Origin: Solwaraspora sp. WMMA2056
GTDB taxonomy: Bacteria; Actinomycetota; Actinomycetes; Mycobacteriales; Micromonosporaceae
DNA: 64,000 nucleotides
Assembly: GCF_030345095.1 (NCBI RefSeq)
Contig: NZ_CP128360.1
Coordinates: 6,758,001-6,822,000, forward strand
Reading direction: 5' to 3'
Under the pieces are notes generated by a model. It searched no databases. It worked only from the letters and a program-made list of their open reading frames with translations, and was not told where the DNA came from. Position numbers and translations under genes: made by a program. Shown here in pieces: positions 6,587 to 42,503 of the stretch; position 1 is the first letter of the stretch, and every line of letters starts with the position of its first letter.

Positions 6587-6592
6587 CGCCGG

Positions 6593-8011: not shown

Positions 8012-9531
<1,520 letters not shown>

Positions 9532-9592
9532 CGGAGCCTCCTGGGAGACCTCCGGGCCACCGGTGTGCGCCCGGACGGGTCGATGGCTGAGG

Positions 9593-9636: not shown

Positions 9637-9673
9637 GTGTCGCGAGGTGCGCCGTCAGCGGCGCCGCGGGTCG

Positions 9674-10762: not shown

Positions 10763-10875
10763 GACGGTCTCCTTCCATTGCACACCGCCACTGTCGCGGC
10801 ATCGCGTCACCACCCGGCCGGTCGGACCGGACGTACTTTGGACGGGAGCGTACGCGCGGACCCGTCCACCGGCCG

Positions 10876-10893
10876 ACAATCGTGCACGACTGT
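10876..10893. promoter_or_regulatory. Candidate operator upstream of the BMP gene
   Basis: ACAATCGTGCACGACTGT is an 18-bp inverted repeat with one mismatched pair around a perfect TCGTGCACGA core. It lies about 115 bp before the BMP start, where a regulator of the nucleoside genes (LacI or GntR type) could bind. No regulator gene is adjacent. Confidence 0.4.
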
Positions 10894-10959
10894 TGAGCCG
10901 CCGTTACCCTCGCGTAACTCTCCCGTGCGGGAGGTCACTCGCGGATCCGCAGGGTCGCT

Positions 10960-10992
10960 CCCGCCGCCGACCTTATCGGGGGCGGCGGCGGG
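10960..10992 (-). terminator. Possible terminator after the small membrane protein gene
   Basis: CCCGCCGCC (10960-10968) pairs with GGCGGCGGG (10984-10992) across a 15-nt loop, about 70 bp past the end of the minus-strand membrane protein gene. GC-rich and without a U-tract, so only a weak call. Confidence 0.4.
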
Positions 10993-11063
10993 TCGCCGGG
11001 GGTTCACCCGGTCGTGACCGACCCGGGTGACGGCACGATCGGTGGCCGGGCGGTGGCGTGGCG

Positions 11064-14220: not shown

Positions 14221-14256
14221 GTCTCCTAGGGTCGGACTGTCTCCTACGGTCGGACC
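14221..14256. repeat. 18-bp tandem duplication over the toxin stop codon
   Basis: GTCTCCTAGGGTCGGACT (14221-14238) is followed directly by GTCTCCTACGGTCGGACC (14239-14256), 16 of 18 positions equal. Each copy encodes, on the minus strand, the last toxin residues, a TAG stop and the GGAGAC sequence that could serve as a ribosome binding site. Likely slippage at the toxin/immunity junction. Confidence 0.8.
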
Positions 14257-17200
14257 TTGGTGACCAACCAGTGGTCACCCACGGGCGCCCACCCGTAGCC
14301 CTTGTCCCGAAGGTACTTCAACTCCCGCTGGAACACGTTCCCACCCGCATAGTTCGGAACGTTGGGGTTGGTCACGATCCGCACCTCGTTGCCGTTGGCG
14401 AAAGCGTCGTTGATGAACCGCTTGTTCCGCGTCCAGTTCCAGCCACCCACGCCGCCCTTACCGTTGTTCAACGTCCCCCTGATGTTCAGGAAGTCCGCGT
14501 CGAAGGCTCCACTGGGCCGATCGAGCATGTACCGCTTGATGTCCGCGAACCGGCCGAGCAACGTGGTCTTCCGGCTGCAGTTGTGCACCAGGACCGGCGC
14601 CTCACCAGCAAGGACGTAGTAGGTGTGGACGCCGCCGACGGTGAGGTCGCGCATCCACTTCAGGCCGGTCCACACCCGGACCGCCGCGACCCGCTGGCTG
14701 GTCTCGCCGTCCGGACTGCGCAACCGGTCACCGGGCCGCAGGTCCGCGGCGTCGGTCCACCTGTTGGTGTCGACATTCCAGAACGGGTGCCGGGCGGTCG
14801 TCTCGACCACCGCGCTCTCACCGGTGTCCGTGTCGGTGACCGTGACGTCGGTCAACTCCCGGTCGGCGTGACCGTGCAGCACCCGCACCGGCCGGGCGGC
14901 GCTCCGCCCCGTGGCCGGGTCGGTGGCCAGCACCTCGTCACCGAGCTCCACCTCGCCGATCGGCTTGGTGCTGCCGTCGGCCATCCGCACCCGGGTGTCC
15001 GGGGCGAAACTGTGCAGCATGCAGCCGGCGGCACCGTCCGCCGTCCCGTCGGCGGCGTCGTCGGCCCGGCTGCCACCAGTCCGGGCGGCGTCGTCGACCC
15101 GGCTCCCGCCGGCGCGGGCGGCGTCGTCGGTGTGTTCGGCGGCTTCCCGGGTGGACCGGCTGGAGCCGCGGGACACCGCCCGGGACGCGTCGTCGGCTTT
15201 GCGGGTGACCGCCCGGCTGAACGACCGGGCCCCGGCGACGGCCTTCGCGCCGACCCGTGCGCCGGCCTTGCCGAGGCTCGTACCGGCGACCTTCTTCGCC
15301 CCGGTGGAGCCGAGCTTGCCGAGGGCTTTACCGGCAGCGGGGCCCATCATCGGCAGGGCGCCGCCGAGGCCACCGGCCAGGCCGCCGATCGCGACGTCCT
15401 GCAGCAGCTCCAAGCCTCTCTTGCCGTCGATGAGGCCGGCGACCAGGGCATCGGTCATGCCGCCGACCATGCCGCAGGCGACCGCCCCGACACCGGTCCA
15501 ACCGATCGCGACCAGGCAGCCGGCCTCGACGACCATGCCGACGATCGCGCCGACGATCGCGGCCTTGTGCTCGACGATCCAGTCACGGGCCGTACGGGCC
15601 CACTGTCCGATCTGGTCGAGACCGGCTTCGAATGCCCGGGCGGCGTCCTGGTACGTCTGCTGCACGTTCTGTTTGATGTCGTTGACAAGCTTCGTCGCGT
15701 CTTTGTACCGGTCGCCGACCCAGTCGGTGACGTCTTCCCATCTGTCGCCGGCCCAGTCGGTGAAGTCGTCCCAGCCCTTCGTCAACCGCTCTCCGACGTG
15801 GCCGGTGGGGTCGACCACCGTCAACGGGCTGCCGTCGCCGTACTGGTAGCGGTTGGCCCGGATCGAGTCCGGCACCGGGCTGACGGTCAGATTGTCGCGG
15901 GCACCGAACTGCGCCGTCACCGGGTCGTACCAGCGGGCATGCATGTTGACCTGCCCGCTGCGGATGTCGGTCCACTCCGACTGGTAGCCGAGGTCACCGA
16001 GCATGCCGCTGTCCGCGGTCACCTCACCCAACGGCGAATAGGTGCGGCTGCCGGTCACCGACGCCCCGGCCGGGTTCAGCTGGGCGACCACGTCACCGTG
16101 CAGATCCGTCCACACCAACCGGCGGGTGTTGTTGTGCCGCGCCCCGACCACACCACCACCCGGATCCCGGGTGAACAACGCGTTGGAACTGTCCCGCGCG
16201 AGATGGTTACCCAGACCGGTGTACTCCCACCCGCCCCGAAACGCCCGACCCAACCCGTCGTAGTCGAACACCCGCGCGTTACCACCCGCCGGAACGTGCT
16301 CAACCACCTGGTCGAACGCGTCCGACACCGTCGCCGCACCACCAGCCGCGCTGCGGGTGCCCCGCGCCGTGTACTGGTAACCGACACCGGTACTGTCCGA
16401 CACAAGGCGGTTACGGGCGTCGTACACGTAGTCGACGTCACCGACCCCGGTCCGGTTCCCCGCCCTGTCGTAGCGGTAACCGACCGTCGTGTTCCCGTCG
16501 TCCCACGACGTCAACCGGTCCGCCAGATCGTAGCTGTACGTGTTGACCGTCGTCGACGAGCCACGGGTGACCGTCCTACTGGTCTCGTTACCATTGACGT
16601 CCCAGCCGTAGCTGATCGACGCGATCGTCGACCCACCCGACGACACCAACCGGTCACTGGTCAACCGGTGCAGATCGTCGTAGGCGAACACCCGCCGGTT
16701 CCCCGACGTCCCGAACGTCATCGACGACACCGCCGACATCACGTCATACGTGTAGCCGATCGCCGTGCCCATGTCCGCGTTGTCCACCGACGCCAACCGG
16801 CCCGCACCGTCATACCCGTACTCGGTCAACCCCGCCGCGTCATCCCGCGACGCCATCAACCCGTCCGCCGTGTACGTGAACGCCGCGTCCCCCGACGGAC
16901 CGGTCACCGACAACGGCAGGCCCCGATCGTCGTACACGACCTGATTGCTGCCCCCCGGCGCGGAGAACTCCACCAACCGACCCGCCGCGTCGTAGCCGTA
17001 CGTCCGATCCGTGGTGGCCGCCTCCGCGCCCGACCCGGACTGACGCACCAACCGGCCCGCGTCGTCGTAGACCAGGGTCCGCGCCACCCCACCCGGGGCA
17101 CGCTGCGACACCGGCTGCCCGGCCACGTCGTACACCGTCGTGAACGTCCGGTCCGCAGCATCCGGATACGCCGCCGTCACCGGCTCGATCCGCGACTGCG

Positions 17201-20200
17201 GCAACCCCCACACGTTGTACGTCGACCGGAACGCCTGACCACGACCGTCAGTGAACCGCGTCGGATTCCCCGCCAGGTCATACCCGAACGACGACTCGAT
17301 CGTCGTCGCCGCATCCACCGGCTCGGACTGCGTCCGCAACAGACCCGCCGCGTCATAACCGAACCGCGTCACCGTGCCCCGCGCGTCCGTCGCCGACACG
17401 GTGTTGCCGGCGGCGTCGTAGGTCCAACTCGACGTGGCCAACGCGGCCCCACCGGACGCCCGGAACGCCGCCGCCGACACCGGCCGGGACAACATGTCGT
17501 AACCCGTGGTGGTGTACGTACCGTCCGGATTGACCTCCTTCACCGCACGACCCAACCCGTCGTGGACGACAACCCGGGTCTGCCCCGCACCGTCGACCAC
17601 ACCCGTCACCTCACCAGCAGCGTTGTAGCCGTACCCGACCGTCACCCCCGCCGGCGACCGCACCGACGACAACCGACCGGCGGCGTCATAACCCACCGTC
17701 GTCGTGTGCACCTGACCGGTCTGCCGCACCGCCTCACTCACACTCGTGACCCGACCCAGGAAGTCGTAACCACTACCGGCCACCGCACCCGTCGGATCCG
17801 TGACCGCCAACACATTGCCCATCAGGTCGTAGCGCGCCGTCGTGGTGCCACCGTCCGGCGCCACCCGCGTCACCACCCGACCCAACTGGTCATAGTCGAA
17901 CTCCGTGACCCGGCCAAGCGGATCCGTCTGCGACACCACCTGCCCCAGACTGTCGTAACTCGCCGTCCTGACCGGAGTGACCGGGGTCAAACTCCCCGGC
18001 GGCGTGTAGCTCGGCAACCGCACCTCCACCGGCCGACCCACCCGATCCACCCCGAACGTCGTCACCGCCCCGTTCGGATCCGACTCCGCAACCACCTCAC
18101 CGAACGTGTTGTAACCAACCCGCTCCACCGGCCGGGCCGACACCACCGGACCATCCAACTCACCCGACTCCACCTGCACCGCCGGACCCGTCGTCACCAC
18201 CGGACGATCCGCCTCGTCATACTCCACAAACGTCGCCTGACCCAACGGATCCACCACCGACGTCGCCAGACCAGCGTTGTCGACCACATAACTCGTCCGC
18301 GACACCCCCGCATCCGCCACCGGCACCGCACCCGCCATCACCCCAGCGGCCCAGCCGTCGTCGCCCGGCACCCCCTGATAGATCTGCAGATCGGAGACGG
18401 CCCCCTTGAGCCCGCCACCGATCCGCAGACCGCCCCGCGCCTGGTTGCTCAGCGCCAAAAAGTGACCGATGTAGACGCCGTCGAGGTACACCGTGGTCGA
18501 TCCGGAGAGCGGGTTCAGCCCGATGGCCACGTGCTGCCACTCGCCCGCCTGCACCGTGCCCTGGCCGAAGGTCTGATCGCGGGTCACGTAGGCGCCCGGG
18601 CCCACCTGCTCGGTCATGGTCATCCGCCATCCATCGGTGGCGGAGTCGAAGCTCAGTTGCAAGGCGGCAAGGAACGCGGTCCGACCCAGGCGGGCGGAGC
18701 CGGGTATCTCCAGTACCAGAGCGTCAGCCGCGACGTCGTCCACCTTCACCCAGGCGGCGACCGTGTACGGCCGGGTGGTGTCCACCACCGGCGCATCGGT
18801 GACGATCCGCGACGACGAACCATTGAACGACGCGACCCGACCCCGCTCGGCATCCGACGCCCAGACCACGTCCGTGGCCGTACCCGGACTGTTCCCCGCC
18901 GAGTCGACCGCCGTCGTCCCACCCGCCTCGTCCAACCGCCACCGCGCCACCGGCGTCACCGACCGGTCCGCCGACAGATACCGGGTCTGCGACACCGGCC
19001 GACCCAACACGTCGTAGGCGTAGTCGACGACCGACAACGCCTCCCCCGCAGCGTCCCGATCCACCCGCGACAACACCCGGTCAGCCGGCGACAACGTCAC
19101 CTCGGACACCCGATCCAGGCCGCCCGGATCCAGCACACTCCGCACCTGCCGACCCGCAGCGTCGTACTCGAACGCCGTCACCGTCGCACCGTTGCCGGTC
19201 ACCTGCTCGACCAGATTCCCCGCCGCGTCGTAACCGTTGCCCTCCAGCAGGAACGAACTGTCACCGTCGGAGCGGGTCACCGACGCCGTCCGCCCATCAT
19301 CGGTATACGTGTAACTCGTGACGTAGCCCATCGCGTCGGTGCTCGACGCCAACCGACCCGCCGGGTCGTACACGTTCGACTCCACCACCAGATCCACCGG
19401 ATCCGTCGGATCATTCGGATCCCCGGTGAACCCCTTCACCGTCCGCGACAACACATTCCCGTTGACATCCACCTCGTAGGCGTTCACCACCCCGTCCGGA
19501 TCAACCTGCTCCACCAGGTGCCCGTACACGTCATAGCCGTAACCGGTCACCGCCCCCTCAGCGTCCACCGACGCCGACCGACGACCGAGCCAGTCGTACG
19601 ACCAGGTACTGACCCGGGCCACATCCCCACCCGACGCGTCACTCACCCGCTCCTCCACCAGGAACCCGTCCACGCTGTACGAAAAACGCGTCACCGCCCG
19701 ATGCACCGCACCCGACACCCGGTCCGTCACCAACGGACCCGTCCGCGTCACCACCCGACCCACCGAGTCGTACGTGAACGACGTCGTCCGCCCCTGCGGA
19801 AACGACGACGTCACCACCGTCTCCGTCAACGTCCGACCCAACCCGTCGTACGTGAACGTCGTCTCCGCATTCGCCGCGTCCAACACCCCGGCCACGTCAC
19901 CCGCCGTGGTGTACGTGATCTCCTGGGATCCGGCGGAGAAGTCCAGCACCCGCAAAGGCATACCTGCCGACCTGCCAGACACGCCATAGGTGATTCTCAT
20001 CTGCCGGCCGACCGGGTCCCGCAACTCGGTCAGGTTGCCCTTGTGGTCGTATGAGTAGCGGCTGAGGTATTCGTTGTCCTGCGCGCTATCCGAGCCCGGG
20101 CCGCGCAGCTCAGTCAGCCGGTCGTTCCGCGGATCCGCCACGTTGTCGCTGTTCCAGAAGTAGCGGTAGTAGCTGCTGGAACACTTGTCCGCGGCCTGAT

Positions 20201-23200
20201 CCTGGCAGGTCACCTCCTGGATGGTGTTGCCCCGCTCGTCCTGCACCGACCGGGTCACGTGCCCGTTCGGGTCGTACACCAGACTCGTGAACCCACCCGT
20301 GTCATAGCCGTACAACGTCGTCTGACCCAACGCGTCGGTCTGCGACACCCTCCGCCCCGACACCAGGTCGTACGAGTACGACACCTCGTTGCCACCCGGA
20401 CCGGTCACCGACACGATCTTCACCGGATTCGACACCGTCGTCGTCTGCACGTGCTCCGCCGCCTCGTCGACCCGCACCGCACCCGGCGGCAACACCTCGA
20501 CCGGCAACCCACCCGCCGCCGTCTCCGACAACGACGACTCGGCAACCTCATCGCCCGCCGCAGTCACTACCAACGGCACCGTCCGACCCACCGACTCGTA
20601 GTGCAACGCCACCTCGTCCGCGCTCAACGCCCGGTCGTAGAGCGCGACCTCCGCCAACGAACCCGCGTAGAGCGCGACCCATATTTCCTCCGGGAACCCC
20701 GACCAACCGTTGTCCACGTACCCCGCGCCCAGGCTCGCGCGGCTGAGCGGAGGTGCCCCGTCGAACGGCTCGGCACTCGTGGTGGTCTGCACGTGCACGC
20801 CGTCCAGGTACAGCGACTGGGCCGTGCCGGTGGATTCCTTGCTCGCGGTCAGCACCGCGTGGTGCCACTTGCCGTCGTTGACCGGCACCGCCGACACCAA
20901 CGCGAACGCCCACGACTGATTGGCCTGGTCGTTGCAGTTGCGGATCGCCAGCTGGGTGCCGTCCGTAGTCGACGAGCCGGGCACCTCCAGGCAACGGCCG
21001 GCACCCACATTGCGCCATGCGTCCCGGTCCGGCGCCCACTGCTGCCTCGAGCTGCTCGAACAGTCCTGCACCTGGACCAGGGTGCCGTTGCCGGTCGCCT
21101 GACCGGTCAGACCCAGACATTTGGTGCCTTGGCGCAGCTGCTGGCTTTCGCGGTCGAAGAGCCAGCTCTGCTCCCACTCACCGTTGCAGGTGCGCAGCCG
21201 CACGCTGTTGTCGGCCTTGTCCCACTCCGCGCACTTGCCGGCGATCCCCGTCAACGGCCCGTTCGGATCTTCCGACGGCGTCAGCCCCCGCAACCGGCCG
21301 TCGGCGTCGATCCACAGCGCCGGCGAAGGGATGCCACCGAGCGTGGGCAGCGGCGCGCCCACCAGTACCCCGCTGGTCGCCGTGGTCCTGAACCACAGCT
21401 CCTGGGACCGCGGCCCCGCCGGCATCACCCGCCCCCCTGGCACGTACACCGACGACGATTCCCCGTCGAACTCCGCCGCCGTTCCGTCCGCGAACGGACC
21501 CGCCGCCCCCAACCTCACCGACTCGAACGAATCACTCGGCTGTCGCGTCTCGTTGACAGGTTGCGCACCGGCCGCATCCCGCAACCGCCAGTAGTCCGTC
21601 GGCTCGGAGGACAGCACCGCCGCGGCGTACACAGCGCTCGTCCCCGCCACCCGCGGCGTCCCCAACCCCCAGGTCCCACCGTTGCTGTCGGTCACCGACG
21701 CCAGCTTCCCGGTCACCGAATCCATCGACAGCGACGCCAGCGTCCGCCCTTCGGCGCTGGTCACCTTCGACAGCTGCCAGCTCTGGCTCGTCGCCGCCGT
21801 GTACAGCTCGGTGACGTCCGCTCCGGTCAGCGAGTGGTCGAAGTACGCGACGTCCGCGACCTGCCCGTCGAAGAAGTTCGCGAATCCGAGGTGGACAACG
21901 GGGTTGTGAAGGCTCTGGTCCGGCCATTTTCCACCCAGGAACCCGGCGCCGACGTACTCGTTGGCTGCCCCGCCGTACTGGAACATGTCGATGATGCCGT
22001 CGGCGGTGTCCTGGCGCGCTCCGTCGAGGTAGAGCGCCTGGCTGTCACCCGCTCCGGCCAGCACCGCGTGATGCCACTGCCCGTCGTCGACCCGCTGGGC
22101 GGTCACCATCGTGTCGAACTCGCCGTCCCAGAACTTCGCCCGCAGCTTGCCGCTCGCGCCGACGTACATCACCGGTGTGAAGCCGTCCTCCGTACTTCCC
22201 GCTGTGATCGGATCCTTCTGGTACGAGTAGAGCACCTGATCGGTGTCGGTCGTCCGGAACCACAGACTGATCGACTGGTAGGCCCCGTCGGTCACCAGCC
22301 GACGGGGCAACCGCACCCACGACGACGAGCCGTTGAAGTCGGTCGACGCGGAGGTCGATCCCGGCCACACCCCCGGCACCACGCCCGCTGACGTGTTCTG
22401 GTGGAACCCCAGGTCGGTGCCGCCGTTGTCCAGCACGCTGCTGGTCGCCCACCTCTCGCCGGCGGGTTCGTTCAACCGCCAGAACGACGACGGCGCATGA
22501 TTCAGCACCGCGTTCGCCCCCTGGTTGGCGCTGTTACCCCAGGAGTACGTGGTGCACGAGTCCGTCGGCGGACACACCTTCGTCAGGCGGTCATAGCTGC
22601 CGTACGTGTACTGCCACACGTACCCACTGCCACCGGCGGTCGGCGGGTCCGTCGTCACCTTCGTCACATGCGACCCGACCGACGGACTCGCCGTCGCCCC
22701 CCAGGTCAACGTCAACGACCGCCCCGACGCGCTGGTCAGCTTCGACACCAGCCCGCTGCCGTTGTAGGTCAACGTCAGGGTGTTCCCGTTCGCGTCGATC
22801 ACCGAGGTGAGCTTGAAGACCCCGCCACCGGCGGCCCGGCCGAACACGTACGTCGTCCCGTGTTTGACGGTCAACCGGTACCCGGTCACCGTGGTCCCGG
22901 ACCTCACCGCGGTCAACACCTCATGCCGCCCCGACGGTGGCGCGAACGACCCGTCCGTGTTCGGCCCGAATCCTGCTGCCGACCCGTCCGGATAGGTGAC
23001 CGTCGCGGTGCGCAACAGGCCGGTCCAGTTCCGGCGTTCCACCACCTGGGTGTCGAGCAGGCTCGACCAGCCCTGCCCGAACGCCCCCGACCGCCGGGTG
23101 TCCAGGCTGTTGTACGACCGGGTGATCTCCAATGCCGGCCCCAGCCCGGCGACCTGCGCGTCCGTCGCCGACGTGGTGTAGTTGCCGATCTCCGGGTGGT

Positions 23201-25280
23201 AGCCCACCCCCGGGTTCTGCACCAACCGCGACCCCAACGCCGGCTGCGGCGCCCGCGTGTAGAACGCGTACTTCGGGTACCGCGCGCCGAGGACACCGTT
23301 GACAATTGCCCCAATAATGTCCTCGGGCTGCACCGACCACGAATACGTCTGGTTCCATTTCAACACGCCGGGCGGAATGGTGAGCGAGGCAGATTTCATC
23401 CCCGGTGGTTGCGATGCGGTCCCGGAGAAGATGACGTCACCGTCACTGTCATGAACGTAGATGTGGTAGACCATGCCGAGAACGCCGTCCAGGTCGCGAC
23501 CCGACATCAGCAGCTCCGGCGTCAGCGTCGAGATCACCGTCCCGGGTCCCGGGGAGCGTGCCTCGACCAGCGGTGCCAGGTTGCCGCTCAGCTCCAGCAC
23601 CAGCTTGGGCGCGTACTGTCCGGAGCCGTAGTCGGACGAGGTGAACAGCGCCCAGGTGACCGGACTCGTCGCCGCCACGGCGTCCAGCGCGAGCCCGAAG
23701 TTCGGGGCACCGAGCGCCCACCCGCCGATCAGCGACCTTCCCAGCCCGTACGTCCCCCACCGGCCGACGGACGGATTCACCGACGAGTTGGTGCACACTG
23801 CCTGCGCCGAGGCCGCCGCGACCAGGCTGGGCGCGTACCTCGTGTCGACGCCCGGCCCGGGATAGGAGGCGGTCGCCAACTCGTCGACCGTCCACTCCTT
23901 CTCGACCAGGTGGCTGCCCACCGGCAGCTGTTCACAGACCGGCCGGTAGGTCAGGTACAGCTCGAGCTGTGCGTTACGGATCGTCGGCGTCGTGTTGATC
24001 AACTCCGACGAGATGTCGAATTCGAGGAAGGTGCGGGCCTTGACTCCGTCCTCGTCCACCCCGATCGCCAGGTAGTTGCCGTCCTGCACGGTCTCGTCGG
24101 TGTCCGGGTCGCTGTCGACGAACACGTCGCCGTCGGTGTCGACCTCGGGGTCGGCCAGCACGGTCGGGTCGACCCGCACCGGGAACACCCGGGCCGGGTC
24201 GGTCAGCCAGGCCCGGTCCGCGACCAGCCTGATCGCCGGCCCGCCGTCAACCTCCACCAGCTGCATCGACACCGCCGGCGACTGGGCCGGCAGGCCTGTT
24301 TTCGCGTCGACCGACGAGTCCAGCATGAACGGCGCCGGAATCGACCCGGCCACCTCGCCCGCGTCGTCGACCAGCTCGATCGATCCGCCGTCGCCGGCCC
24401 GGACCGTCAACCCGGCAAGGACGAGCGGGAACACCCATTCCGACGCCGCGCGCGGTGACGCCAGGATCAGCGTCTCCTTCACCCCGTCCGGCCGTGCCAC
24501 CAGCTCCAGATCGGTGCCCGGCAGCACCTTCGGATAGATCGCGGTCGCACCGGTCACGGTCGGCGTCACCGCCGCCGCACCGGCCAGACTCCACCCCAGT
24601 GACCCGCCCGCCGGCAGGGTCAGCTCCACCAGCGGCTCAGGCGAGGCCTCGGCCGTGTCGGCCAGCGAGATCCCCAGCGAGTTGTCCGTCACCGTCCACC
24701 GGTCGCCGCGCCGCGTCAACGTCGAGTCGACCGGCCGCCACGACCCGTCCGCCGCCTGGTAGTTGACCCGGCCCGTGGAAATTTCCACGGTCTTCGAACC
24801 GTCTGCGTTGACGTACACGTCCATGTTCGACCGCGACGCCCGCGCGTCCCGCCGGCTCGTCTCGGGCTCGAGCTGACTCCCGGTGTCCGATGTCACCGTC
24901 CGGTCCACCGCCGGCTGCGTCGCCCACCCGGGGAGACCGTCGACCAGCTCCTGCGCCGAGCCCGCGCCACCGGACGCCCGGGTCGCCGCCGACGACACGT
25001 AGCCACCCGGGCCTGCACCGTCACCGACCCGCGCCGTCGGCAGCTCCACCGGCGACCCGCTCAACCCCAGCAGCCACGACGGCCGATCGGTGAGCCAGGA
25101 GGTCAACCAGCCGATCGGGAACTCGCCACCCGGCTGCACCGCGCCGGGCGGCGCCGACGCGGTCAGCCCGACCAGCACGACCAGGGCGGTCGCCACCCCG
25201 GCCGTGCATCGCCGCCAAACGGCACGCAGCCACGCCTGCTCTGCTCGAGTCCGCTGCTGAGTACTCCGGCCCGTGCCCAT
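14244..25280 (-). CDS. Giant secreted RHS polymorphic toxin with LamG, ricin-lectin and Hint domains
   Basis: About 3,678 residues. Order from the N-terminus: basic signal peptide with hydrophobic core (VATALVVLVGLTASA); DNRLRE-like beta domain (nt about 24130-23560); DUF6531-type RHS entry (NPGVGYHPEIGNYTTSATDAQ, nt 23200); LamG 1 (nt 22400-21790); LamG 2 (nt 21480-20600) with an inserted ricin-type QxW lectin (nt 21240-20890); YD/RHS repeats (nt 20350-16100) interrupted by LamG 3 (nt 18830-18350); RHS core closing in DPTGH (nt 15800); Gly/Ala hydrophobic stretch (nt 15600-15350); Hint autoprotease with SFAPDTRVRMADG and closing VLVHNC (nt 15030-14577); then a toxin tip of about 110 residues. 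I chose the ATG at 25280 because AAGGGGAAGG lies 9 nt upstream; an ATG at 25304 lacks such a site. RHS parts use G-ending codons, N-terminal parts C-ending ones. Confidence 0.92.
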   Translation of the reverse strand: MGTGRSTQQRTRAEQAWLRAVWRRCTAGVATALVVLVGLTASAPPGAVQPGGEFPIGWLTSWLTDRPSWLLGLSGSPVELPTARVGDGAGPGGYVSSAATRASGGAGSAQELVDGLPGWATQPAVDRTVTSDTGSQLEPETSRRDARASRSNMDVYVNADGSKTVEISTGRVNYQAADGSWRPVDSTLTRRGDRWTVTDNSLGISLADTAEASPEPLVELTLPAGGSLGWSLAGAAAVTPTVTGATAIYPKVLPGTDLELVARPDGVKETLILASPRAASEWVFPLVLAGLTVRAGDGGSIELVDDAGEVAGSIPAPFMLDSSVDAKTGLPAQSPAVSMQLVEVDGGPAIRLVADRAWLTDPARVFPVRVDPTVLADPEVDTDGDVFVDSDPDTDETVQDGNYLAIGVDEDGVKARTFLEFDISSELINTTPTIRNAQLELYLTYRPVCEQLPVGSHLVEKEWTVDELATASYPGPGVDTRYAPSLVAAASAQAVCTNSSVNPSVGRWGTYGLGRSLIGGWALGAPNFGLALDAVAATSPVTWALFTSSDYGSGQYAPKLVLELSGNLAPLVEARSPGPGTVISTLTPELLMSGRDLDGVLGMVYHIYVHDSDGDVIFSGTASQPPGMKSASLTIPPGVLKWNQTYSWSVQPEDIIGAIVNGVLGARYPKYAFYTRAPQPALGSRLVQNPGVGYHPEIGNYTTSATDAQVAGLGPALEITRSYNSLDTRRSGAFGQGWSSLLDTQVVERRNWTGLLRTATVTYPDGSAAGFGPNTDGSFAPPSGRHEVLTAVRSGTTVTGYRLTVKHGTTYVFGRAAGGGVFKLTSVIDANGNTLTLTYNGSGLVSKLTSASGRSLTLTWGATASPSVGSHVTKVTTDPPTAGGSGYVWQYTYGSYDRLTKVCPPTDSCTTYSWGNSANQGANAVLNHAPSSFWRLNEPAGERWATSSVLDNGGTDLGFHQNTSAGVVPGVWPGSTSASTDFNGSSSWVRLPRRLVTDGAYQSISLWFRTTDTDQVLYSYQKDPITAGSTEDGFTPVMYVGASGKLRAKFWDGEFDTMVTAQRVDDGQWHHAVLAGAGDSQALYLDGARQDTADGIIDMFQYGGAANEYVGAGFLGGKWPDQSLHNPVVHLGFANFFDGQVADVAYFDHSLTGADVTELYTAATSQSWQLSKVTSAEGRTLASLSMDSVTGKLASVTDSNGGTWGLGTPRVAGTSAVYAAAVLSSEPTDYWRLRDAAGAQPVNETRQPSDSFESVRLGAAGPFADGTAAEFDGESSSVYVPGGRVMPAGPRSQELWFRTTATSGVLVGAPLPTLGGIPSPALWIDADGRLRGLTPSEDPNGPLTGIAGKCAEWDKADNSVRLRTCNGEWEQSWLFDRESQQLRQGTKCLGLTGQATGNGTLVQVQDCSSSSRQQWAPDRDAWRNVGAGRCLEVPGSSTTDGTQLAIRNCNDQANQSWAFALVSAVPVNDGKWHHAVLTASKESTGTAQSLYLDGVHVQTTTSAEPFDGAPPLSRASLGAGYVDNGWSGFPEEIWVALYAGSLAEVALYDRALSADEVALHYESVGRTVPLVVTAAGDEVAESSLSETAAGGLPVEVLPPGAVRVDEAAEHVQTTTVSNPVKIVSVTGPGGNEVSYSYDLVSGRRVSQTDALGQTTLYGYDTGGFTSLVYDPNGHVTRSVQDERGNTIQEVTCQDQAADKCSSSYYRYFWNSDNVADPRNDRLTELRGPGSDSAQDNEYLSRYSYDHKGNLTELRDPVGRQMRITYGVSGRSAGMPLRVLDFSAGSQEITYTTAGDVAGVLDAANAETTFTYDGLGRTLTETVVTSSFPQGRTTSFTYDSVGRVVTRTGPLVTDRVSGAVHRAVTRFSYSVDGFLVEERVSDASGGDVARVSTWSYDWLGRRSASVDAEGAVTGYGYDVYGHLVEQVDPDGVVNAYEVDVNGNVLSRTVKGFTGDPNDPTDPVDLVVESNVYDPAGRLASSTDAMGYVTSYTYTDDGRTASVTRSDGDSSFLLEGNGYDAAGNLVEQVTGNGATVTAFEYDAAGRQVRSVLDPGGLDRVSEVTLSPADRVLSRVDRDAAGEALSVVDYAYDVLGRPVSQTRYLSADRSVTPVARWRLDEAGGTTAVDSAGNSPGTATDVVWASDAERGRVASFNGSSSRIVTDAPVVDTTRPYTVAAWVKVDDVAADALVLEIPGSARLGRTAFLAALQLSFDSATDGWRMTMTEQVGPGAYVTRDQTFGQGTVQAGEWQHVAIGLNPLSGSTTVYLDGVYIGHFLALSNQARGGLRIGGGLKGAVSDLQIYQGVPGDDGWAAGVMAGAVPVADAGVSRTSYVVDNAGLATSVVDPLGQATFVEYDEADRPVVTTGPAVQVESGELDGPVVSARPVERVGYNTFGEVVAESDPNGAVTTFGVDRVGRPVEVRLPSYTPPGSLTPVTPVRTASYDSLGQVVSQTDPLGRVTEFDYDQLGRVVTRVAPDGGTTTARYDLMGNVLAVTDPTGAVAGSGYDFLGRVTSVSEAVRQTGQVHTTTVGYDAAGRLSSVRSPAGVTVGYGYNAAGEVTGVVDGAGQTRVVVHDGLGRAVKEVNPDGTYTTTGYDMLSRPVSAAAFRASGGAALATSSWTYDAAGNTVSATDARGTVTRFGYDAAGLLRTQSEPVDAATTIESSFGYDLAGNPTRFTDGRGQAFRSTYNVWGLPQSRIEPVTAAYPDAADRTFTTVYDVAGQPVSQRAPGGVARTLVYDDAGRLVRQSGSGAEAATTDRTYGYDAAGRLVEFSAPGGSNQVVYDDRGLPLSVTGPSGDAAFTYTADGLMASRDDAAGLTEYGYDGAGRLASVDNADMGTAIGYTYDVMSAVSSMTFGTSGNRRVFAYDDLHRLTSDRLVSSGGSTIASISYGWDVNGNETSRTVTRGSSTTVNTYSYDLADRLTSWDDGNTTVGYRYDRAGNRTGVGDVDYVYDARNRLVSDSTGVGYQYTARGTRSAAGGAATVSDAFDQVVEHVPAGGNARVFDYDGLGRAFRGGWEYTGLGNHLARDSSNALFTRDPGGGVVGARHNNTRRLVWTDLHGDVVAQLNPAGASVTGSRTYSPLGEVTADSGMLGDLGYQSEWTDIRSGQVNMHARWYDPVTAQFGARDNLTVSPVPDSIRANRYQYGDGSPLTVVDPTGHVGERLTKGWDDFTDWAGDRWEDVTDWVGDRYKDATKLVNDIKQNVQQTYQDAARAFEAGLDQIGQWARTARDWIVEHKAAIVGAIVGMVVEAGCLVAIGWTGVGAVACGMVGGMTDALVAGLIDGKRGLELLQDVAIGGLAGGLGGALPMMGPAAGKALGKLGSTGAKKVAGTSLGKAGARVGAKAVAGARSFSRAVTRKADDASRAVSRGSSRSTREAAEHTDDAARAGGSRVDDAARTGGSRADDAADGTADGAAGCMLHSFAPDTRVRMADGSTKPIGEVELGDEVLATDPATGRSAARPVRVLHGHADRELTDVTVTDTDTGESAVVETTARHPFWNVDTNRWTDAADLRPGDRLRSPDGETSQRVAAVRVWTGLKWMRDLTVGGVHTYYVLAGEAPVLVHNCSRKTTLLGRFADIKRYMLDRPSGAFDADFLNIRGTLNNGKGGVGGWNWTRNKRFINDAFANGNEVRIVTNPNVPNYAGGNVFQRELKYLRDKGYGWAPVGDHWLVTKVRP

Positions 25281-25481
25281 CGGCGGCGACCTTCCCCTTG
25301 GCATTGCGATCCGTCAATCGGAATCGCGATACATCGTGCAGGACCGTGCACGGAGAGACTTGAGGAAGATCTGAGGAAATTGTTCGTGAGTTTGTCTGAG
25401 GGACCTCGCGAGAGACTCCGGCCGGAGTTCGGGCAACCGGTCCAGCCAGGACACCTCGTCGCTCGGCGGCGGCGGACGAAG

Positions 25482-36069: not shown

Positions 36070-36488
36070 CAGGTTCCTCCGCAACGGCGACGCTCACCCC
36101 TCACTGCGGGGGTGGGCTGTCGTGTCCACGCAACGCTCGGACTACGCCCCGGATTCCGTCTCGCTCGTCTCGGCGGCTAGTGGTGCTTTGTTAGGTCTGT
36201 CGATGTCGTTCATCCAGACTCAGGCGGACGAGGACGCACCACCCCAACCGGCCGCTCGCACCATCCAAGCAACATCGGGGACCACAAATGGGACATTACC
36301 ATCGTAAATTGATCTCGCAGGGTGAGTCTGGTGGCCGCCGTGTGGCAACCTGTATACGTGCTTCGGCTCAGCGCTGACAATCGGATCCATGGTCGACCGC
36401 CGCTCTGGATCAGCCTCGCTTGCCCTCGACGGGACACCGTCGACGATGTCGTCACGGCGGGTGCCTCGCAAGCACCGGACCCGGTGTC
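36070..36488. other. Non-coding boundary of the low-G+C island
   Basis: 419 bp with no convincing gene. It starts with a terminator-like hairpin at 36095 and then changes from C/G-rich to clearly A/T-richer sequence (for example GTGGTGCTTTGTTAGG around 36182). Short frames here do not show actinobacterial codon use. It probably holds the left junction of the accessory island and the promoter of the STAND gene. Confidence 0.55.
36095..36114 (+). terminator. Terminator-like hairpin after the sigma/partner pair
   Basis: CACCCC and GGGGTG enclose an 8-nt loop, 26 nt after the stop codon of the membrane partner gene. Short and without a U-tract. Confidence 0.5.
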
Positions 36489-39400
36489 ATGACCCCTTCC
36501 GACATTAGGCAAATCCGCTTCTACGAGCGCCTCGGCGGTAGTTGGCGTGATCTTGCAGACCACCTTGGCATCCCGCCCGTTGACCAGGCACGGTTCGTGT
36601 CAGGCTACGAGGCGCGTGGGATCTGGCACTGGCTGGACGAACGCGACCTGCGCGATCGGCTGCCCGCAGCGCTGCGGGCGGTACGCCGCCCAGATCTTGC
36701 CGAGTTACTCGGATCGGTCCAACCACCAGCTGACCGGGTCGCCAACATTGTCTCGAAGCCGTACGACCTACTGACGGCACCAGACGGGCTCGTCGGCAGG
36801 ACCGACATTCTGGCCACGCTGAAGGACTTCGCCGTCGCCGACTCGCCCGCAAGACGCATCGTCGTGCTCCGCGCCGTAGGTGGCATGGGCAAATCTGCCA
36901 TTGCCTGGACCTTCTGGGACCAGATTGTCCCGGCCCTGCCCCTCGCAGATCGCCCAGAGGTTGCAGTTTGGTGGTCATTCACAGATCTTGACGGGACCGT
37001 AAGTGCCCTGATCAGCAAGCTGGCTGATCAGGCATCGTCAGACGTTGCCGGTGGGCCGGTCGAGCGCGCAGTACACACGCTGCTAAACCGTCGTTGCCTT
37101 CTGGTCATCGACGCGCTGGAACGCCAGCTCGAAGCTTTCAGTTCGATGGTTTTCCGAAGCGATCTTGAAGTCGGTCAGCAGCCGATGTCCGACCTGGCTG
37201 GTGACCGACGACGGATAGTCGACCCTCGACTGGTAGACCTACTTTCCGCCGTTCGCACCGGCAAGCGGTCACAGATTGTCATTACCAGCAGACTCATGCC
37301 GATCAACCTCGAGGCGGCACCAGATCGACCACGGTACGGAGTGGAACTTGTCAACGTGCCGCCACTCACTACGACAGACGGACAGCGCCTACTATCGAGC
37401 TTTGGATTACCAGAAGACAAATTGCTCATGGCGCGACTAGACGAATCTACCGGAATGCATCCCTTGCTCCTCCAACTTGCAGCCCGATTTCTCGCCTCGC
37501 GCCGCGTAGACTCCTCCGAAATAGTCACCACCGTTGCCACCGAAGGTCTTCCAACAAATCTGAAGCAGGAAATCGACCGCGCACGAGCTACTTTCATGAA
37601 CTCCATCCTGCAGCAACTCTCCTCGGAAGAGGTCCTTGTCGCGCAGGTCGTGGCGGCCTCCACCCAGCCGCTGGCAACCGGGGAGGTCCGAGCGATGGTC
37701 ACCCGCCTCAGCACAGATCCGATCGACGTACCCAGGGTATTGGGGAGTCTAGCGGATCTCTCGCTTGTCGCCTCGGATCGTCGCCCTCTCGGCGACACCC
37801 GCTGGGCGATCCATCCGGTCGTACAGGGCGCTATCCGCGCCCTACAGACGGCCACCGCACCAGACACCATCGTTCAGGCAGTAGCGATCGAGTTCACGTC
37901 GGCCCTGAATCGTGCCTATACAGATGTACGCGGCATCTCAGATTTGCAGCGCCCAATTGAGCTATTCAATGCCTTGTGCAGCCTTCAGCGATACGATGAC
38001 GCGGCCATACACTACATCCGGTCACTGCATCAGCCACTGACTTTTGCCTGCCCACGGGACCATCAGGAGCGATTGATCCTGATCGGAAGGCTCTTCCCTA
38101 ACGGCTGGCGTGCGGAGACACCGATTGGCGACAGTCGACTCCAAAGCATCATTCTCAATGCGGCTGCGTTGGCCCACCAATGGGTGGGTCAGAACCGACT
38201 TGCCGCCGATTTGCTGAAGCGGGCCGTTCAGGCCGAGGAGAGCAAGCAAAACGCAACGTTGTGGAGCAATTTGGCCTCGATCCTGATGTACACCGACGAT
38301 CTCGCTGAGGCCTACCGCGCGGCGATGACGGCTATCCGCTGCAGTTGGGGCAGCGGTGAATCCCGTATTCCGATCACCTACCTTGCCCTGATTCTCCGGC
38401 AAGCAGGCCGACCGGCTGATCGACTCACAGCGCTGCTGAAAGCACCCGCATCGGGTAGAATATCACCAGCTTGGCGCGCCCTCCGGCTCGGCGATCTGGC
38501 ACTGTGGAACGGCAAGCCGGAGGAGGCGCTGGCGCTAGGAGAGCAGTCACTGGCCTACGCACAGAGGCAGGTTCCACCATTCGAGGCAAGCCTCATCGAA
38601 GCATCGCGACTGATCGGCCAGTCCCTCGTTGCCCTCAGTCTGTTCGACGAGGCAGTCCCCGTTCTGGAGGAGGCGCTACGCCGCACCCGTGACTTCGCTA
38701 TTGTGCAAGAGGAGCTACCAATCCGGGTGTCGTTGGCCAGAGCATTGCTGATACGGTCTCCCGAACGCGTTGAAAGAATCATCGCGGACGGATTCGAACG
38801 CTACGATGCCATCGACTATAGATGGTTCACAGTAGAAGCAGAACTTGTCCTTGCCGATCTCCATCAGCGTCGTGGGGACGCCGATCGGGCGGCTATTCAT
38901 CGGCGGTCGGCGCTTGATCTAGCTGTTGGCCCGGACGGTTGGAGCTACGTCCACGGCCCGCTGCGGATCGGCGTACAGAGCCACGCAGGATATTCCTTCA
39001 TCGATCCGCAGCCAGCGATGGCAGAGGTTGACCAGCTGCTGGACAAGTTTCAGGCTATGGCCGATACCGGCAGCGCCTCATCAGGAGCCATACAGGACGA
39101 CTCAACGGTGGTGAGTGCTGAAGGAAAGCGCGCCAATCTTCCACGTTCCGGAGGTTATCAAGGTGCCGCGCCTCCGACGATGATCCGCGCACAAACCGGG
39201 TTCGGGCATCGGCGACAAATCCTTGCGATCGGCACCGAATGGAGATCCGGCAACGGCGGCTTGAGCACTCTCAATCGCGACCTATGCACCGCACTCGCCG
39301 CCGCCGGGCAAGACGTCACCTGCCTAGTCCTCTTTGCAACCGACGCTGATCGGGCAGCTGCAGAGGCAGGCGGTGTCCGACTCCTGATCGCCGATTCAAC

Positions 39401-40409
39401 TCCCGGCGGGGGTGGACTTGAAGCCCTGTCGCGACGCTCGGTGCTCCGCGCCGACTACGTCCCCGAAGTCATCATCGGCCACGGCAGGATTACTGGTCCG
39501 GCCGCGTTTCGCCTTGCTGAGGACTACCCCCAAGCCAAACGTCTTCATGTTATCCACATGGCACCAGACGAGATCGAATGGTACAAGGCGAAGAGCTCGC
39601 CGGGCTCGGAGACGTCGACCGACGTCGGTGCCCTCGCCGAAGATCGCCTCTGGGTCGAACTGGAACTGGCCCGAGACGCCAATCTGACTGCCGCCGTCGG
39701 GCCACGGCTATTCGAACGCTATCAGGGGTACCTCCACGAGGCTCCGACCCGGATAGTTCGCCTCGATCCGGGCTTCGATACCGGCAGTGTCCCGCACCCT
39801 GGTCCACCACCAGGTCAGCCTTGGCGGATTCTGGTCGTCGGCCGGGCTGAGGATGCCAGACTCAAAGGGCTCGATCTCGCCGCTCAGGCGGTTGCGCAAG
39901 CCGTAAGGTATCGCGACACAAACGCTGCCCGCCTTGAACTTGTCGTCCGTGGTGCCCCCGATCGACACTCCGCCGAGCTTCGGAATAGCTTGCTGGCCTG
40001 GGCAGGCCCAGGACCGTTGGACGTCGTGGTCCTCCCGTACTCCTTGAACGAAGCACGGCTGAGCCAAGACCTGCGTGCAGCTAGCTTGGTGCTGATGCCC
40101 TCGCGGAAGGAGGGTTTCGGCCTTGTCGGCGTCGAGGCGATCAAGGCAGGTGTACCGGTGTTGATCAGCCGAGACACTGGCCTCGGCGAGCTTCTGAAGG
40201 AAGTTTGGCCAACGGACAGGATCGGGCAATTGCTTGTTCCGATCACAGGCGACAATACCGAGGACGCGCCAGCTTGGGGTAGAGCTATTGACCGAGCGCT
40301 TGGCGATCGCGAGGCGGCATTTGCTCGCGCCGAGCAGCTACGTGTTGATCTGATTCGGCAACGCTCCTGGGCATCCACAGTGGCTGGATTGCTTGCCGAA
40401 CTAGGGTAG
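36489..40409 (+). CDS. STAND ATPase with N-terminal death-like domain and C-terminal GT4 glycosyltransferase
   Basis: 1,306 residues. Residues 1-75 resemble the bacterial death-like/effector-associated domains (FYERLGGSWRDLADHLGIP, ARGIWHWLDERD, RPDLAELLG). An NB-ARC-like ATPase follows: P-loop GGMGKS at 131-136, Walker B LLVIDALE near 205, sensor segment QIVITSRLMP near 270, then a winged-helix-like part. Residues about 540-860 are helical repeats of TPR type. From about 907 a GT4 glycosyltransferase begins (RQILAIGTEWRSGNGGLSTLNRDL), with a second Rossmann half (ILVVGRAEDARLKGLDL) and the catalytic EX7E pattern EGFGLVGVE near 1205. This is the layout of NLR-like immune proteins with sensor repeats, though here both ends carry effector-type modules. 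ATG 36489 is the likely start; its ribosome site is weak. Codons are A/T-richer than the chromosome. Confidence 0.88.
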   Translation: MTPSDIRQIRFYERLGGSWRDLADHLGIPPVDQARFVSGYEARGIWHWLDERDLRDRLPAALRAVRRPDLAELLGSVQPPADRVANIVSKPYDLLTAPDGLVGRTDILATLKDFAVADSPARRIVVLRAVGGMGKSAIAWTFWDQIVPALPLADRPEVAVWWSFTDLDGTVSALISKLADQASSDVAGGPVERAVHTLLNRRCLLVIDALERQLEAFSSMVFRSDLEVGQQPMSDLAGDRRRIVDPRLVDLLSAVRTGKRSQIVITSRLMPINLEAAPDRPRYGVELVNVPPLTTTDGQRLLSSFGLPEDKLLMARLDESTGMHPLLLQLAARFLASRRVDSSEIVTTVATEGLPTNLKQEIDRARATFMNSILQQLSSEEVLVAQVVAASTQPLATGEVRAMVTRLSTDPIDVPRVLGSLADLSLVASDRRPLGDTRWAIHPVVQGAIRALQTATAPDTIVQAVAIEFTSALNRAYTDVRGISDLQRPIELFNALCSLQRYDDAAIHYIRSLHQPLTFACPRDHQERLILIGRLFPNGWRAETPIGDSRLQSIILNAAALAHQWVGQNRLAADLLKRAVQAEESKQNATLWSNLASILMYTDDLAEAYRAAMTAIRCSWGSGESRIPITYLALILRQAGRPADRLTALLKAPASGRISPAWRALRLGDLALWNGKPEEALALGEQSLAYAQRQVPPFEASLIEASRLIGQSLVALSLFDEAVPVLEEALRRTRDFAIVQEELPIRVSLARALLIRSPERVERIIADGFERYDAIDYRWFTVEAELVLADLHQRRGDADRAAIHRRSALDLAVGPDGWSYVHGPLRIGVQSHAGYSFIDPQPAMAEVDQLLDKFQAMADTGSASSGAIQDDSTVVSAEGKRANLPRSGGYQGAAPPTMIRAQTGFGHRRQILAIGTEWRSGNGGLSTLNRDLCTALAAAGQDVTCLVLFATDADRAAAEAGGVRLLIADSTPGGGGLEALSRRSVLRADYVPEVIIGHGRITGPAAFRLAEDYPQAKRLHVIHMAPDEIEWYKAKSSPGSETSTDVGALAEDRLWVELELARDANLTAAVGPRLFERYQGYLHEAPTRIVRLDPGFDTGSVPHPGPPPGQPWRILVVGRAEDARLKGLDLAAQAVAQAVRYRDTNAARLELVVRGAPDRHSAELRNSLLAWAGPGPLDVVVLPYSLNEARLSQDLRAASLVLMPSRKEGFGLVGVEAIKAGVPVLISRDTGLGELLKEVWPTDRIGQLLVPITGDNTEDAPAWGRAIDRALGDREAAFARAEQLRVDLIRQRSWASTVAGLLAELG

Positions 40410-40456
40410 AATGCTTCCAACAGGGAGAACACGGTGGCGGACGGAGCGATGCGCAC

Positions 40457-41206
40457 TTGAACGGAGTCGTCGAGCAACTGGCTCTTGGTGTCGCTGCCAG
40501 CGCAATCGCTGGCAGCGCGGTCTGGGGATATCAACAGCTGCGTACGGGTAGCCGTATCCGCACTGAACGTAGTTTCCTTGGACTGCCGATGAAGGGCGCC
40601 CATCCCATCCGGATAATCGTTGGAGATCAGGCAGGCACGACCGGGCAGGTCAATCGGACCGACATGGCCGCCGTCTTTGAGCTGGCTTTCCTGCTACGCA
40701 ACACTGGCGCCGCCGTCGATCTGCAAACTGCAGAAGAAGCCCGAGTTCGACGCGCTGACGATACTGAGTTTTGTGTCGGCGGCCCACACTCTAACACACG
40801 TACCGCCGCAGCAATTCGACGACACTTTCCTGGTCTCGTTTTTCCTCCATTCGATCCAATCAACGGGACCCACTGGACGTTGTCGGTTGGTAAACGAAGG
40901 TTGTTGGGCGTCAAGGGTCAGGTGGAGTACGTCATGCTTGCCCGGATACAGCGGACGGGTCGGCCGCATCTGTTTATCGTCGCCGGGCAGGCAGCCGTGG
41001 CCAATCACGCCGCAGCGGCGTACTTCGCCCAAGAGGTGCCCAGCCTGCGCCGCCGATTCGGCGACACCAGCACCTTCTGTCTGGGGCTGCGGGTGCTGGA
41101 TTCGAAGATCTATGGTCATCACGAGGTTGAAGAACTGGCTGACCTGACAGCTGAGGCACAGGGGCATGATCCGGAAGAGGAAAGAGGCGCTGCAGCGGCT
41201 GAATAG
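40457..41206 (+). CDS. Membrane-anchored protein of unknown function beside the STAND gene
   Basis: 249 residues. One N-terminal hydrophobic helix (LALGVAASAIAGSAVW), then a soluble domain with the segments FELAFLLRNTGA, DTEFCVGGPHSNTRTAAAIRRHFPG, VEYVMLARIQ, HLFIVAGQAAVANHAAAAYFAQEV and CLGLRVLDSKIYGHHEVEEL. The GGPHSNTRT turn between a strand and a helix looks like a ligand-binding loop, but I recognise no family. TTG start at 40457 with GGAG 10 nt upstream, 47 bp after the STAND gene, same strand and same A/T-richer codons, so probably the second gene of a two-gene unit. Confidence 0.7.
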   Translation: MNGVVEQLALGVAASAIAGSAVWGYQQLRTGSRIRTERSFLGLPMKGAHPIRIIVGDQAGTTGQVNRTDMAAVFELAFLLRNTGAAVDLQTAEEARVRRADDTEFCVGGPHSNTRTAAAIRRHFPGLVFPPFDPINGTHWTLSVGKRRLLGVKGQVEYVMLARIQRTGRPHLFIVAGQAAVANHAAAAYFAQEVPSLRRRFGDTSTFCLGLRVLDSKIYGHHEVEELADLTAEAQGHDPEEERGAAAAE

Positions 41207-41287
41207 GGCCGCGCTCGACGAACGCGGCATCGCCTACAGCGTCCAGGTCAAAGGCGAGGCCCTCGCGCAGCCCGCCGACCGGCCGGC

Positions 41288-41521
41288 CACCGCATCACCC
41301 ACGACACCGACGGCAGCCTGCCCGAACGGTGGCTGGTCCCCGAATGGCCTGCGACACGACCCAAAAGCGGCTGCGTCGGCCTGACCCCCTACCGCACGAT
41401 CCGCGAGTTGCAATCCCTACTCGCCACCTGGGCCGACGCATGCCCCACCTGCCACCAAACCGTCACACCCTCGACCCTCGACCGGCAACAGACATCGACA
41501 GACCCAACGAAGCACTACTAG
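41288..41521 (+). pseudogene. Remnant of an IS701/SRSO17-like transposase
   Basis: In one open frame the segment reads HRITHDTDGSLPERWLVPEWP..., then GLTPYRTIRELQSLLATWADACPTC and a stop at 41519. Both pieces match the late part and the C-terminal end of IS701-family transposases, but about 60 residues between them are missing, and nothing of the N-terminal catalytic part is left. A relic of an insertion sequence next to the accessory island; terminal inverted repeats were not found. Confidence 0.6.
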
Positions 41522-42503
41522 CCGCCGGGCATGGTCCCGTGTGATGGAGGCGGGAGTGCCGCGCTGAAGCGGGCCGCGACCGTGGCGACGGCGGCCCGCA
41601 GCTGCGGGCCTGCTTCGACGGTGAAATCGAACGGTACGGCGGCCAGCCACTCCTGGGCGTAAATCGCGGGGTTGCGGGTGCTGCCGACCAGGACGCACCG
41701 GTCGCCGGCCGGAGTGAGGCGGCCCATCGGTGGCCGGATCCATGGGGCGACCTGCTCGTACGGCGCGTGGAACACGACCCGGGTGGGGTACTGCCAGCCG
41801 ACGCCGAGATGCTCCTCGAGGGCGGCGACCGGGTCCAGGTCGTCGGGTGGGGTAAAGCCGTGCGGCAGCTGTCGTACGGCACGTACCCGGTCGATCCGGT
41901 AGGTGCGTACCGCGTCGGCGCGGTGCGAGTGGCACAGCAGGTACCAGCGTCGGTGCCGCACCACGACCGCCCACGGGTCGACCTCGGCGTCGTACTGCTC
42001 GCCGCTCTCACCCCGATAGGTGACGATCACGCGGCGTCGGTCGGCGACGGCGGTGACCAGGGCGTTCGTGATGGCGGGGTCGGGGCGGGCGGTATGCCGG
42101 TCGGGGGTGGCCGAGGCGTACCCCCGTAGTGCCGCCGCCTGCCGTCCGATGCTGTCGGGCAGGGCCCGGATGACTTTGCTGAGTGCCGCGCCGATCGGGT
42201 CGTCGGGGTCGATCGCGGCCGGCTGCCCGTCGAGCACCGCCATGACCAGGCCGAGGGCCTGTTCCTGGGTGAAGACGACCGGTGGCAGCCGGGTGCCCCG
42301 GCCGAGAGCCGGTAGCCGCCGTACGGCCCGCGGACCGATTCGACCTCGATGCCGGCTTCCCGAAGGATCCCGATGTAGCGTCGCGCGGCTCGCTCGGTCA
42401 CGCCGAGGGCGGCGGCGAGCTGGTCGGCGGTCGTTCCGGGGCGGTCCCGCAGGATTTCGAGGGTCCGGATGGCGCGGGCGGTAGGGCTCGTTCCGGTGCA
42501 CAC
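41518..42503 (-). pseudogene. WYL-domain transcriptional regulator split by a frameshift
   Basis: The HTH half (TARAIRTLEILRDRPGTTADQLAAALGVTERAARRYIGILREAGIEVESVRGPYGGYRL, from GTG 42503) and the WYL half (GRGTRLPPVVFTQEQALGLVMAVLDG... to the stop at 41518) are in different frames. They meet near 42304-42308, where CTCTCGG replaces an expected CTCGG; removing one TC pair restores YRLGRGTRLPP. Both halves are otherwise intact. Either a recent inactivating dinucleotide insertion or a sequencing error. Divergent from the hydrolase gene it probably controlled. Confidence 0.8.

Follow-up and report, generated by a model that had tools for sequence, protein, structure and literature searches.

Kaur et al. 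(2021, eLife, PMC8195603; Kaur, Iyer, Burroughs and Aravind) named bDLD3, a bacterial domain related to the Death domains of metazoans that serves as a terminal adaptor. In the passages of that paper used here, glycosyltransferase family 4 (GT4) domains are fused, often C-terminally, to signal transduction ATPases with numerous domains (STAND NTPases) of the AP-ATPase, NACHT and SWACOS types, some with an N-terminal TIR or caspase domain; the GT4 is proposed as a potential effector and the STAND-GT4 fusions are predicted to be counter-invader proteins. Here we analyze a locus that unites these parts, in Solwaraspora sp. WMMA2056 (contig NZ_CP128360.1, positions 6,758,001 to 6,822,000; this whole stretch of 64,000 nt is the window, and its numbering is used throughout). 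The gene of a predicted receptor encodes bDLD3, a STAND-type NTPase, tetratricopeptide repeats (TPR) and GT4 in a single protein, a second gene encodes a 249-residue protein that is probably its partner, and both lie in a mobile element. We see an even chance that the locus encodes an immune (counter-invader) receptor that is self-contained, was moved horizontally and uses a glycosyltransferase as its effector.

The receptor type was thus already predicted in 2021, so that the sequence-only reading of this DNA, which knew of no characterized immune system with such a combination, overstated its novelty; what is new is the partner and the mobile unit, neither described in the parts of the literature examined. 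The placement of GT4 C-terminal to the STAND NTPase and of bDLD3 at a terminus is as in the 2021 systems, but here a single polypeptide unites all four parts, the genome search gave no second bDLD3, and the gene behind it encodes a protein with a membrane helix, a partner not seen in the passages of PMC8195603 used here. In the nSTAND2 two-gene GT4 operon reported there, the second gene encodes a STAND NTPase, whereas here it encodes an alpha/beta protein with no family match. Elsewhere, the preprint PMC10055258 reports, in the part consulted, that bacterial death-fold domains (one bDLD3 per operon tested) can be supersaturable, and the main text of the paper on the CARD-NLR-like LypABC system (PMC13236601) contains no glycosyltransferase. 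Among the matches listed from the open-licence literature none examined a GT4 immune protein by experiment, although such a study could be missed.

The predicted receptor and its relatives

The receptor gene (ATG start, 1306 codons) is followed after 47 bp by the partner gene (TTG start) on the same strand (Table 1). The sequence-only reading had proposed a build like that of the nucleotide-binding leucine-rich-repeat (NLR) receptors, with a death-like domain, TPR-like repeats and GT4, and this was borne out above Pfam cut-offs, the death-like domain being sharpened to bDLD3: PF20690 at residues 8–74 (72.9 bits, cut-off 27.1), TPR_12 at 664–734 (37.3 bits, cut-off 30.1) and GT4-conflict, PF20706, at 912–1301 (429.6 bits, cut-off 26, spanning model positions 1–385 of 385). 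The ATPase, which it had called NB-ARC-like, is recognizable from motifs, GGMGKS at 131–136, LLVIDALE at 204–211 and VITSR at 264–268, with a weak profile score (AAA_16, 18.6 bits, under its cut-off of 32.6). As marks of a STAND NTPase of the AP-ATPase/NB-ARC clade we looked for a P-loop, Walker B, sensor Arg, winged-helix His motif and TPR C-terminus; motifs are there, but no STAND model scored above its own cut-off, and we assign the NTPase to no clade. For bDLD3 we looked for W in helices 2 and 4 and RxD at helix 6 (helix assignment from the text of Kaur et al.), and found W19, W46/W48 and R67xD69 (alignment A6). By PF20690 search and the same alignment this is the only bDLD3 found in the one-contig host genome (next match E 0.23), hence no bDLD3-bearing effector would be available in trans.

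The glycosyltransferase had been called complete, with an EX7E pattern, and the full-length Pfam match and the motif at 1208–1216 agree with this. Among 21 GT4 domains the first Glu of the motif is kept in 20, and the second position is Glu in 18, Asp in two and Gln in one; the window domain has E1208, E1216 (18 of 21), R1119 (20 of 21), and K1126 and H1023 (each 21 of 21). The roles of these residues (EX7E, R/K donor site) are known from other GT4 enzymes. Of the family-wide losses named beforehand as counting against an immune function, that of EX7E was not seen, and the P-loop is present in the receptor; to judge from its residues the receptor's GT4 is apparently intact. Its structure model is closest to the solved small-molecule glycosyltransferases MshA and BshA, which are alike in GT4 fold at identities of 24% and 16%. 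The GT4 alignment and tree include 20 non-own loci out of 21 (L131, its frame broken by a stop, was left out); matches in the genomes of the host's family weaker than about 1e–57 were left out, except G292, which had a STAND match.

Full-length relatives of the receptor were not found in the 354 genomes of the family (where matches were confined to the GT4, NTPase or bDLD3 region) nor in 395 other genomes of the phylum (GT4-region matches in three), two candidates being scored per genome. The receptor was found in none of the six congeners, residues 1–905 as query for related loci found no relative, and there was no match at E 1e–5 in 50,697 phage records (viral_contigs not searched) to indicate a phage-borne origin. 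This precise combination may have been put together from modules only recently. The nearest STAND-TPR relative found, WP_329028165.1 (L065) on a plasmid of Streptomyces sp. NBC_00690, is 38.5% identical over receptor residues 87–820: the chassis is common to both, but the Streptomyces protein has no GT4, instead showing a sub-threshold TCAD9 match in front and adjoining a convergent S_4TM effector gene. Within the family the best match to the NTPase region is a 1471-residue protein (L145, G292:C1, 4649–9064, minus strand) that has DUF4062 in its front part, an Hsp90-associated winged-helix match at the end, and TPR and HEAT matches below threshold.

A Pfam scan covered 12 GT4 proteins of the 21 non-own loci, and five had further recognized domains: TIR, sub-threshold NACHT, TPR and GT4 in that order in Catellatospora tritici (L069); GT4, VMAP-M0, NB-ARC and TPR (L127); AAA_16 and GT4 (L128); GT4, sub-threshold AAA_22/NACHT and WD40 (L130); and GT4 with a C-terminal bDLD3 (L132). 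GT4 therefore occurs at both ends of NLR-like proteins. Five others (L068, L134, L136, L137 and L138) carry an N-terminal extension with no Pfam match, and L126 and L135 have no other domain match. The scanned neighbors of GT4 genes included CHAT proteins at L134 and L136, an AAA_22/NACHT protein at L133, and at L140 sub-threshold nSTAND3/AAA_16 matches only. At L132 (G085:C61, minus strand) the GT4-bDLD3 fusion (32–1582) has a second, small bDLD3 protein nearby (2225–2620), an apparent effector-adaptor arrangement.

The probable 249-residue partner

The partner matched nothing in Pfam, NCBIfam or PADLOC and no sequence family in the PDB; we attribute weak hits to Phage_TAC_11 (E 0.007), obscurin (E 0.47) and AbrB (E 0.033, seen with 11 of 54 members) to chance. 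Its N-terminus is a predicted helix (2–40) whose best 19-residue hydropathy is 1.59, the mean for its homologues being 1.81, with 54 of 60 at 1.6 or more. Of the membrane anchor asserted in the sequence-only reading, the helix stands, and the hydropathy makes anchoring likely, short of proof. By the positive-inside rule the soluble part would lie on the cytoplasmic side. Its model has the fold shared by GH67 N-terminal domains, BcsB and S-layer anchors, although Foldseek alone gave no E-value under 0.001; the partner has no sequence match to those proteins and differs from them in being fused to a membrane helix and predicted to be cytoplasmic.

Homologues of the partner occur in 61 of the 354 family genomes (own included) and at 550 loci in a collection of 84,980 species. 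We used 60 of the 63 non-own places in the family, leaving out the three weakest, and the best 80 of the 550 collection loci, all actinobacterial; gene starts came from a simple open reading frame (ORF) script and may be misplaced. D69, E75, E104 and R115 are invariant in the 54 sequences of alignment A2 (the window partner and 53 of the 60 family loci); the protein family that it represents, with L225, L233 and L090 as examples, corresponds to no Pfam entry. Besides the window protein, the 35-row partner tree includes 22 of these 60 loci and 12 of the 80 from the collection.

When the receptor's four parts were sought near partner homologues, GT4 alone was seen, at three of the 60 family and three of the 80 collection loci, representing the same two species. 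In both, a GT4-conflict gene lies directly upstream of the partner homologue on the same strand, with a gap of 22 bp in Paractinoplanes atraurantiacus and of 117–174 bp, according to the start chosen, in C. tritici (two scaffolds, one assembly); the same pair within one assembly (G098, C34 and C43) was counted once. The C. tritici protein resembles the receptor in its STAND-TPR-GT4 order and in having a partner-family gene directly downstream, but it has TIR in place of bDLD3, its NACHT is below cut-off, and its partner comes from another branch of the family. On the partner tree the three GT4-linked members are separate, well-supported branches forcing three changes, so that a dedicated GT4 subfamily of partners was rejected; the GT4 proteins of the three pairs likewise do not form one group (at least two changes). 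A rough calculation with 7000 genes per genome gives about 0.001 adjacencies of GT4 and partner expected by chance in 354 genomes. Since members of its family directly follow GT4-conflict genes in two other species as well, and the tree calls for three separate recruitments, the 249-residue protein is probably a real partner of the receptor, as had been suggested; this repeated recruitment is the strongest evidence for that status.

The mobile element

Both genes are framed by a 37-nt inverted repeat, 92% complementary, whose core pattern (up to three mismatches) occurs twice in the genome, both times at this element. CTAG borders each end, leaving 5337 bp inside. The transposase relic spotted beforehand proved to be two pieces of a 447-residue transposase to the right of the partner gene (41205–41279 and 41288–41365); no intact DDE transposase was found in the element, and both its ends are of the parent insertion sequence (IS) right-end type. 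Eight of the 354 family genomes, the host's among them, carry the end pattern; in G110, G332 and G112 this pattern delimits complete ISs of 1542–1547 bp, with CTAG on both sides and a transposase of 447–449 residues; that of the complete copy L205 matches DDE_5. The element is derived from an IS701-like insertion sequence. The family we take to be IS701, presumably with the target YTAR. At L205 (G332:C52) the complete parent IS (5050–6596) lies near a gene for a 1106-residue protein with an NPHP3_N match (7740–11060).

When the flanks are joined with one CTAG, the right side resembles the uninterrupted 3' end of a WYL-regulator gene in the congeners G006 and G001, where nothing clearly corresponds to the left flank. 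Because CTAG is palindromic, a target duplication would be an interpretation of these copies, supported by the CTAG at both ends of complete ISs. In congeners G002 and G001 (L186 and L188) the interval corresponding to window 36085–41518 holds other genes, including a shared gene of 214–219 codons. The codons had been described as A/T-richer than those of the flanks, and so they are: G+C at third codon positions is 0.646 in the receptor gene and 0.604 in the partner gene, against a mean of 0.887 and a minimum of 0.698 for the 34 other called window genes of more than 200 codons.

Proposed working and competing explanations

As an immune receptor, the protein would sense a cue of infection or stress through its TPR region, the STAND NTPase would exchange nucleotide, and the receptor would oligomerize; its bDLD3 domains, for which the genome search gave no other bDLD3 to bind, would nucleate self-assembly. 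Assembly would cluster or unlock the C-terminal GT4, which is most likely the effector, brought together near the membrane by the oligomerized receptor. It would move a sugar from a nucleotide-sugar to an acceptor, the donor probably being a UDP-sugar, as used by the nearest solved relatives, MshA and BshA. The partner may hold its sugar-enzyme-like alpha/beta domain at the cytoplasmic membrane face and there provide a docking site, carry the acceptor or read the product, and the outcome would be anti-phage. A bolder and rather less likely reading is a two-component glycosylation-effector immunity in which assembled death-like domains would switch on GT4 in cis and a membrane-tethered partner with a carbohydrate-enzyme-type fold, recruited on three or more separate occasions to GT4 proteins that differ in their front ends, would present the acceptor or read the sugar product, the window unit having moved as an IS-derived cassette.

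Several observations weigh against an immune receptor with a GT4 effector. GT4 is C-terminal, where STAND proteins usually bear sensors, and the C. tritici TIR-STAND-TPR-GT4 protein already has an N-terminal effector. The genomes searched in the family (354) and the phylum (396), with two candidates scored in each, gave no whole-protein ortholog. PADLOC-DB 2.0.0 gave no family match to receptor or partner and no system model, and no defence gene was found among the 10 flanking genes scanned, the WYL regulator excepted. Around 57 of the 60 family loci of the partner, and 77 of the best 80 in the collection, nothing related to the receptor's GT4, bDLD3, NTPase or TPR parts was seen, and the GT4-linked partners, forming no clade, could also be chance neighbors. 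Finally, the genes upstream of partner homologues (59 of 66 proteins scanned) are often sugar-related (LacI-type 13, F5_F8_type_C 9, GH16 3), which could mean a general carbohydrate role of the partner family outside immunity.

The best-placed alternative, which we consider somewhat unlikely, is that GT4 is a sensor of a nucleotide-sugar or an invader glycan and that the effector is separate and recruited in trans by bDLD3; GT4 would then sit where STAND-lectin fusions carry their C-terminal domain (PMC8195603, in the passages used), the C. tritici protein would have its effector, TIR, in front and its sensor behind, and bDLD3 would keep to its precedent as an adaptor (same source and extent). 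That only one bDLD3 turned up in a one-contig genome and that the chassis relative has no GT4 instead favor GT4 as an effector in cis, and this sensor role is further opposed by the kept catalytic residues and by relatives that place GT4 in the effector slot or fuse it to bDLD3.

That the 249-residue gene is an unrelated passenger, copied from some common chromosomal gene and trapped by chance between IS ends, is unlikely: its homologues are widespread and mostly lie apart from GT4, and the GT4-linked members are no clade, but three unrelated pairs share strand and order at gaps of 47, 22 and 117–174 bp, to be set against the rough chance expectation given above. The pairing proposed in the sequence-only reading is seen in two further species and is missing from most family loci.

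Improbable, lastly, is a STAND regulator outside immunity, which would glycosylate a small molecule or an acceptor in the cell envelope during differentiation or stress and have the partner for its scaffold at the membrane: developmental STAND regulators occur in actinobacteria, the nearest solved folds are small-molecule enzymes, partner-family genes often adjoin sugar-related ones and no defence island surrounds the locus, but the element is mobile with foreign codons, the receptor is patchily distributed and absent from six congeners, and its relatives bear or adjoin TIR, CHAT, VMAP-M0 or bDLD3.

Among the literature matches described above, no GT4-conflict protein had an immune function shown by experiment. 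This compact locus (two genes, 5.3 kb), with no second bDLD3 found to confuse results and a named partner family, makes bacterial glycosylation as an immune effector reaction directly testable, and the answer would extend past bacteria, given the related GT4 domains of invertebrate immune-type proteins, with more than 500 copies in one coral (PMC8195603, in the passages used).

Table 1. Features of the receptor locus and its mobile element (window coordinates)
Feature	Coordinates	Strand	Basis
bDLD3-STAND-TPR-GT4 protein, 1306 aa	36489..40409	+	
bDLD3 death-like domain, residues 8–74, W19, W46/W48, R67xD69	36510..36710	+	Pfam and alignment
STAND-type NTPase core: P-loop 131–136, Walker B 204–211, TSR 264–268	36879..37292	+	motifs; weak AAA_16 match
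TPR region, residues about 589–734	38253..38690	+	Pfam
GT4-conflict glycosyltransferase, residues 912–1301	39222..40391	+	Pfam; structure model and fold match
EX7E motif, residues 1208–1216	40110..40136	+	
249-aa partner: predicted N-terminal hydrophobic helix (2–40), then alpha/beta domain	40457..41206	+	
IS701-derived mobile element, 5337 bp, bearing both genes	36181..41517	.	inverted ends, CTAG, matching complete ISs
Inverted repeat, left arm, 37 nt, parent IS right-end type	36171..36207	+	
Inverted repeat, right arm	41491..41527	-	
CTAG left copy, read as target duplication	36177..36180	.	
CTAG right copy, 3' end of WYL-regulator gene	41518..41521	.	
Transposase relic: residues 251–275 (84% identical) and 343–368 (62%) of 447-aa parent transposase	41205..41365	+	

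The 10 flanking genes scanned include hydrolases, a major facilitator superfamily transporter, a sigma factor, WYL and TetR regulators, a CAAX protease, YcxB and an ATP-grasp protein; the WYL regulator, next to the element, also has a weak Cas3c match. A place for the receptor inside a defence island was rejected, as these genes give nothing else of that kind. The relatives scanned bear TIR, NB-ARC, VMAP-M0 or bDLD3 or adjoin CHAT or P-loop NTPase genes. A role of GT4 in an envelope-sugar operon was rejected too: its Pfam family is GT4-conflict and the flanking genes do not fit. Elsewhere in the window, an ORF of 3686 codons occupies 11 kb (14244–25304, minus strand).
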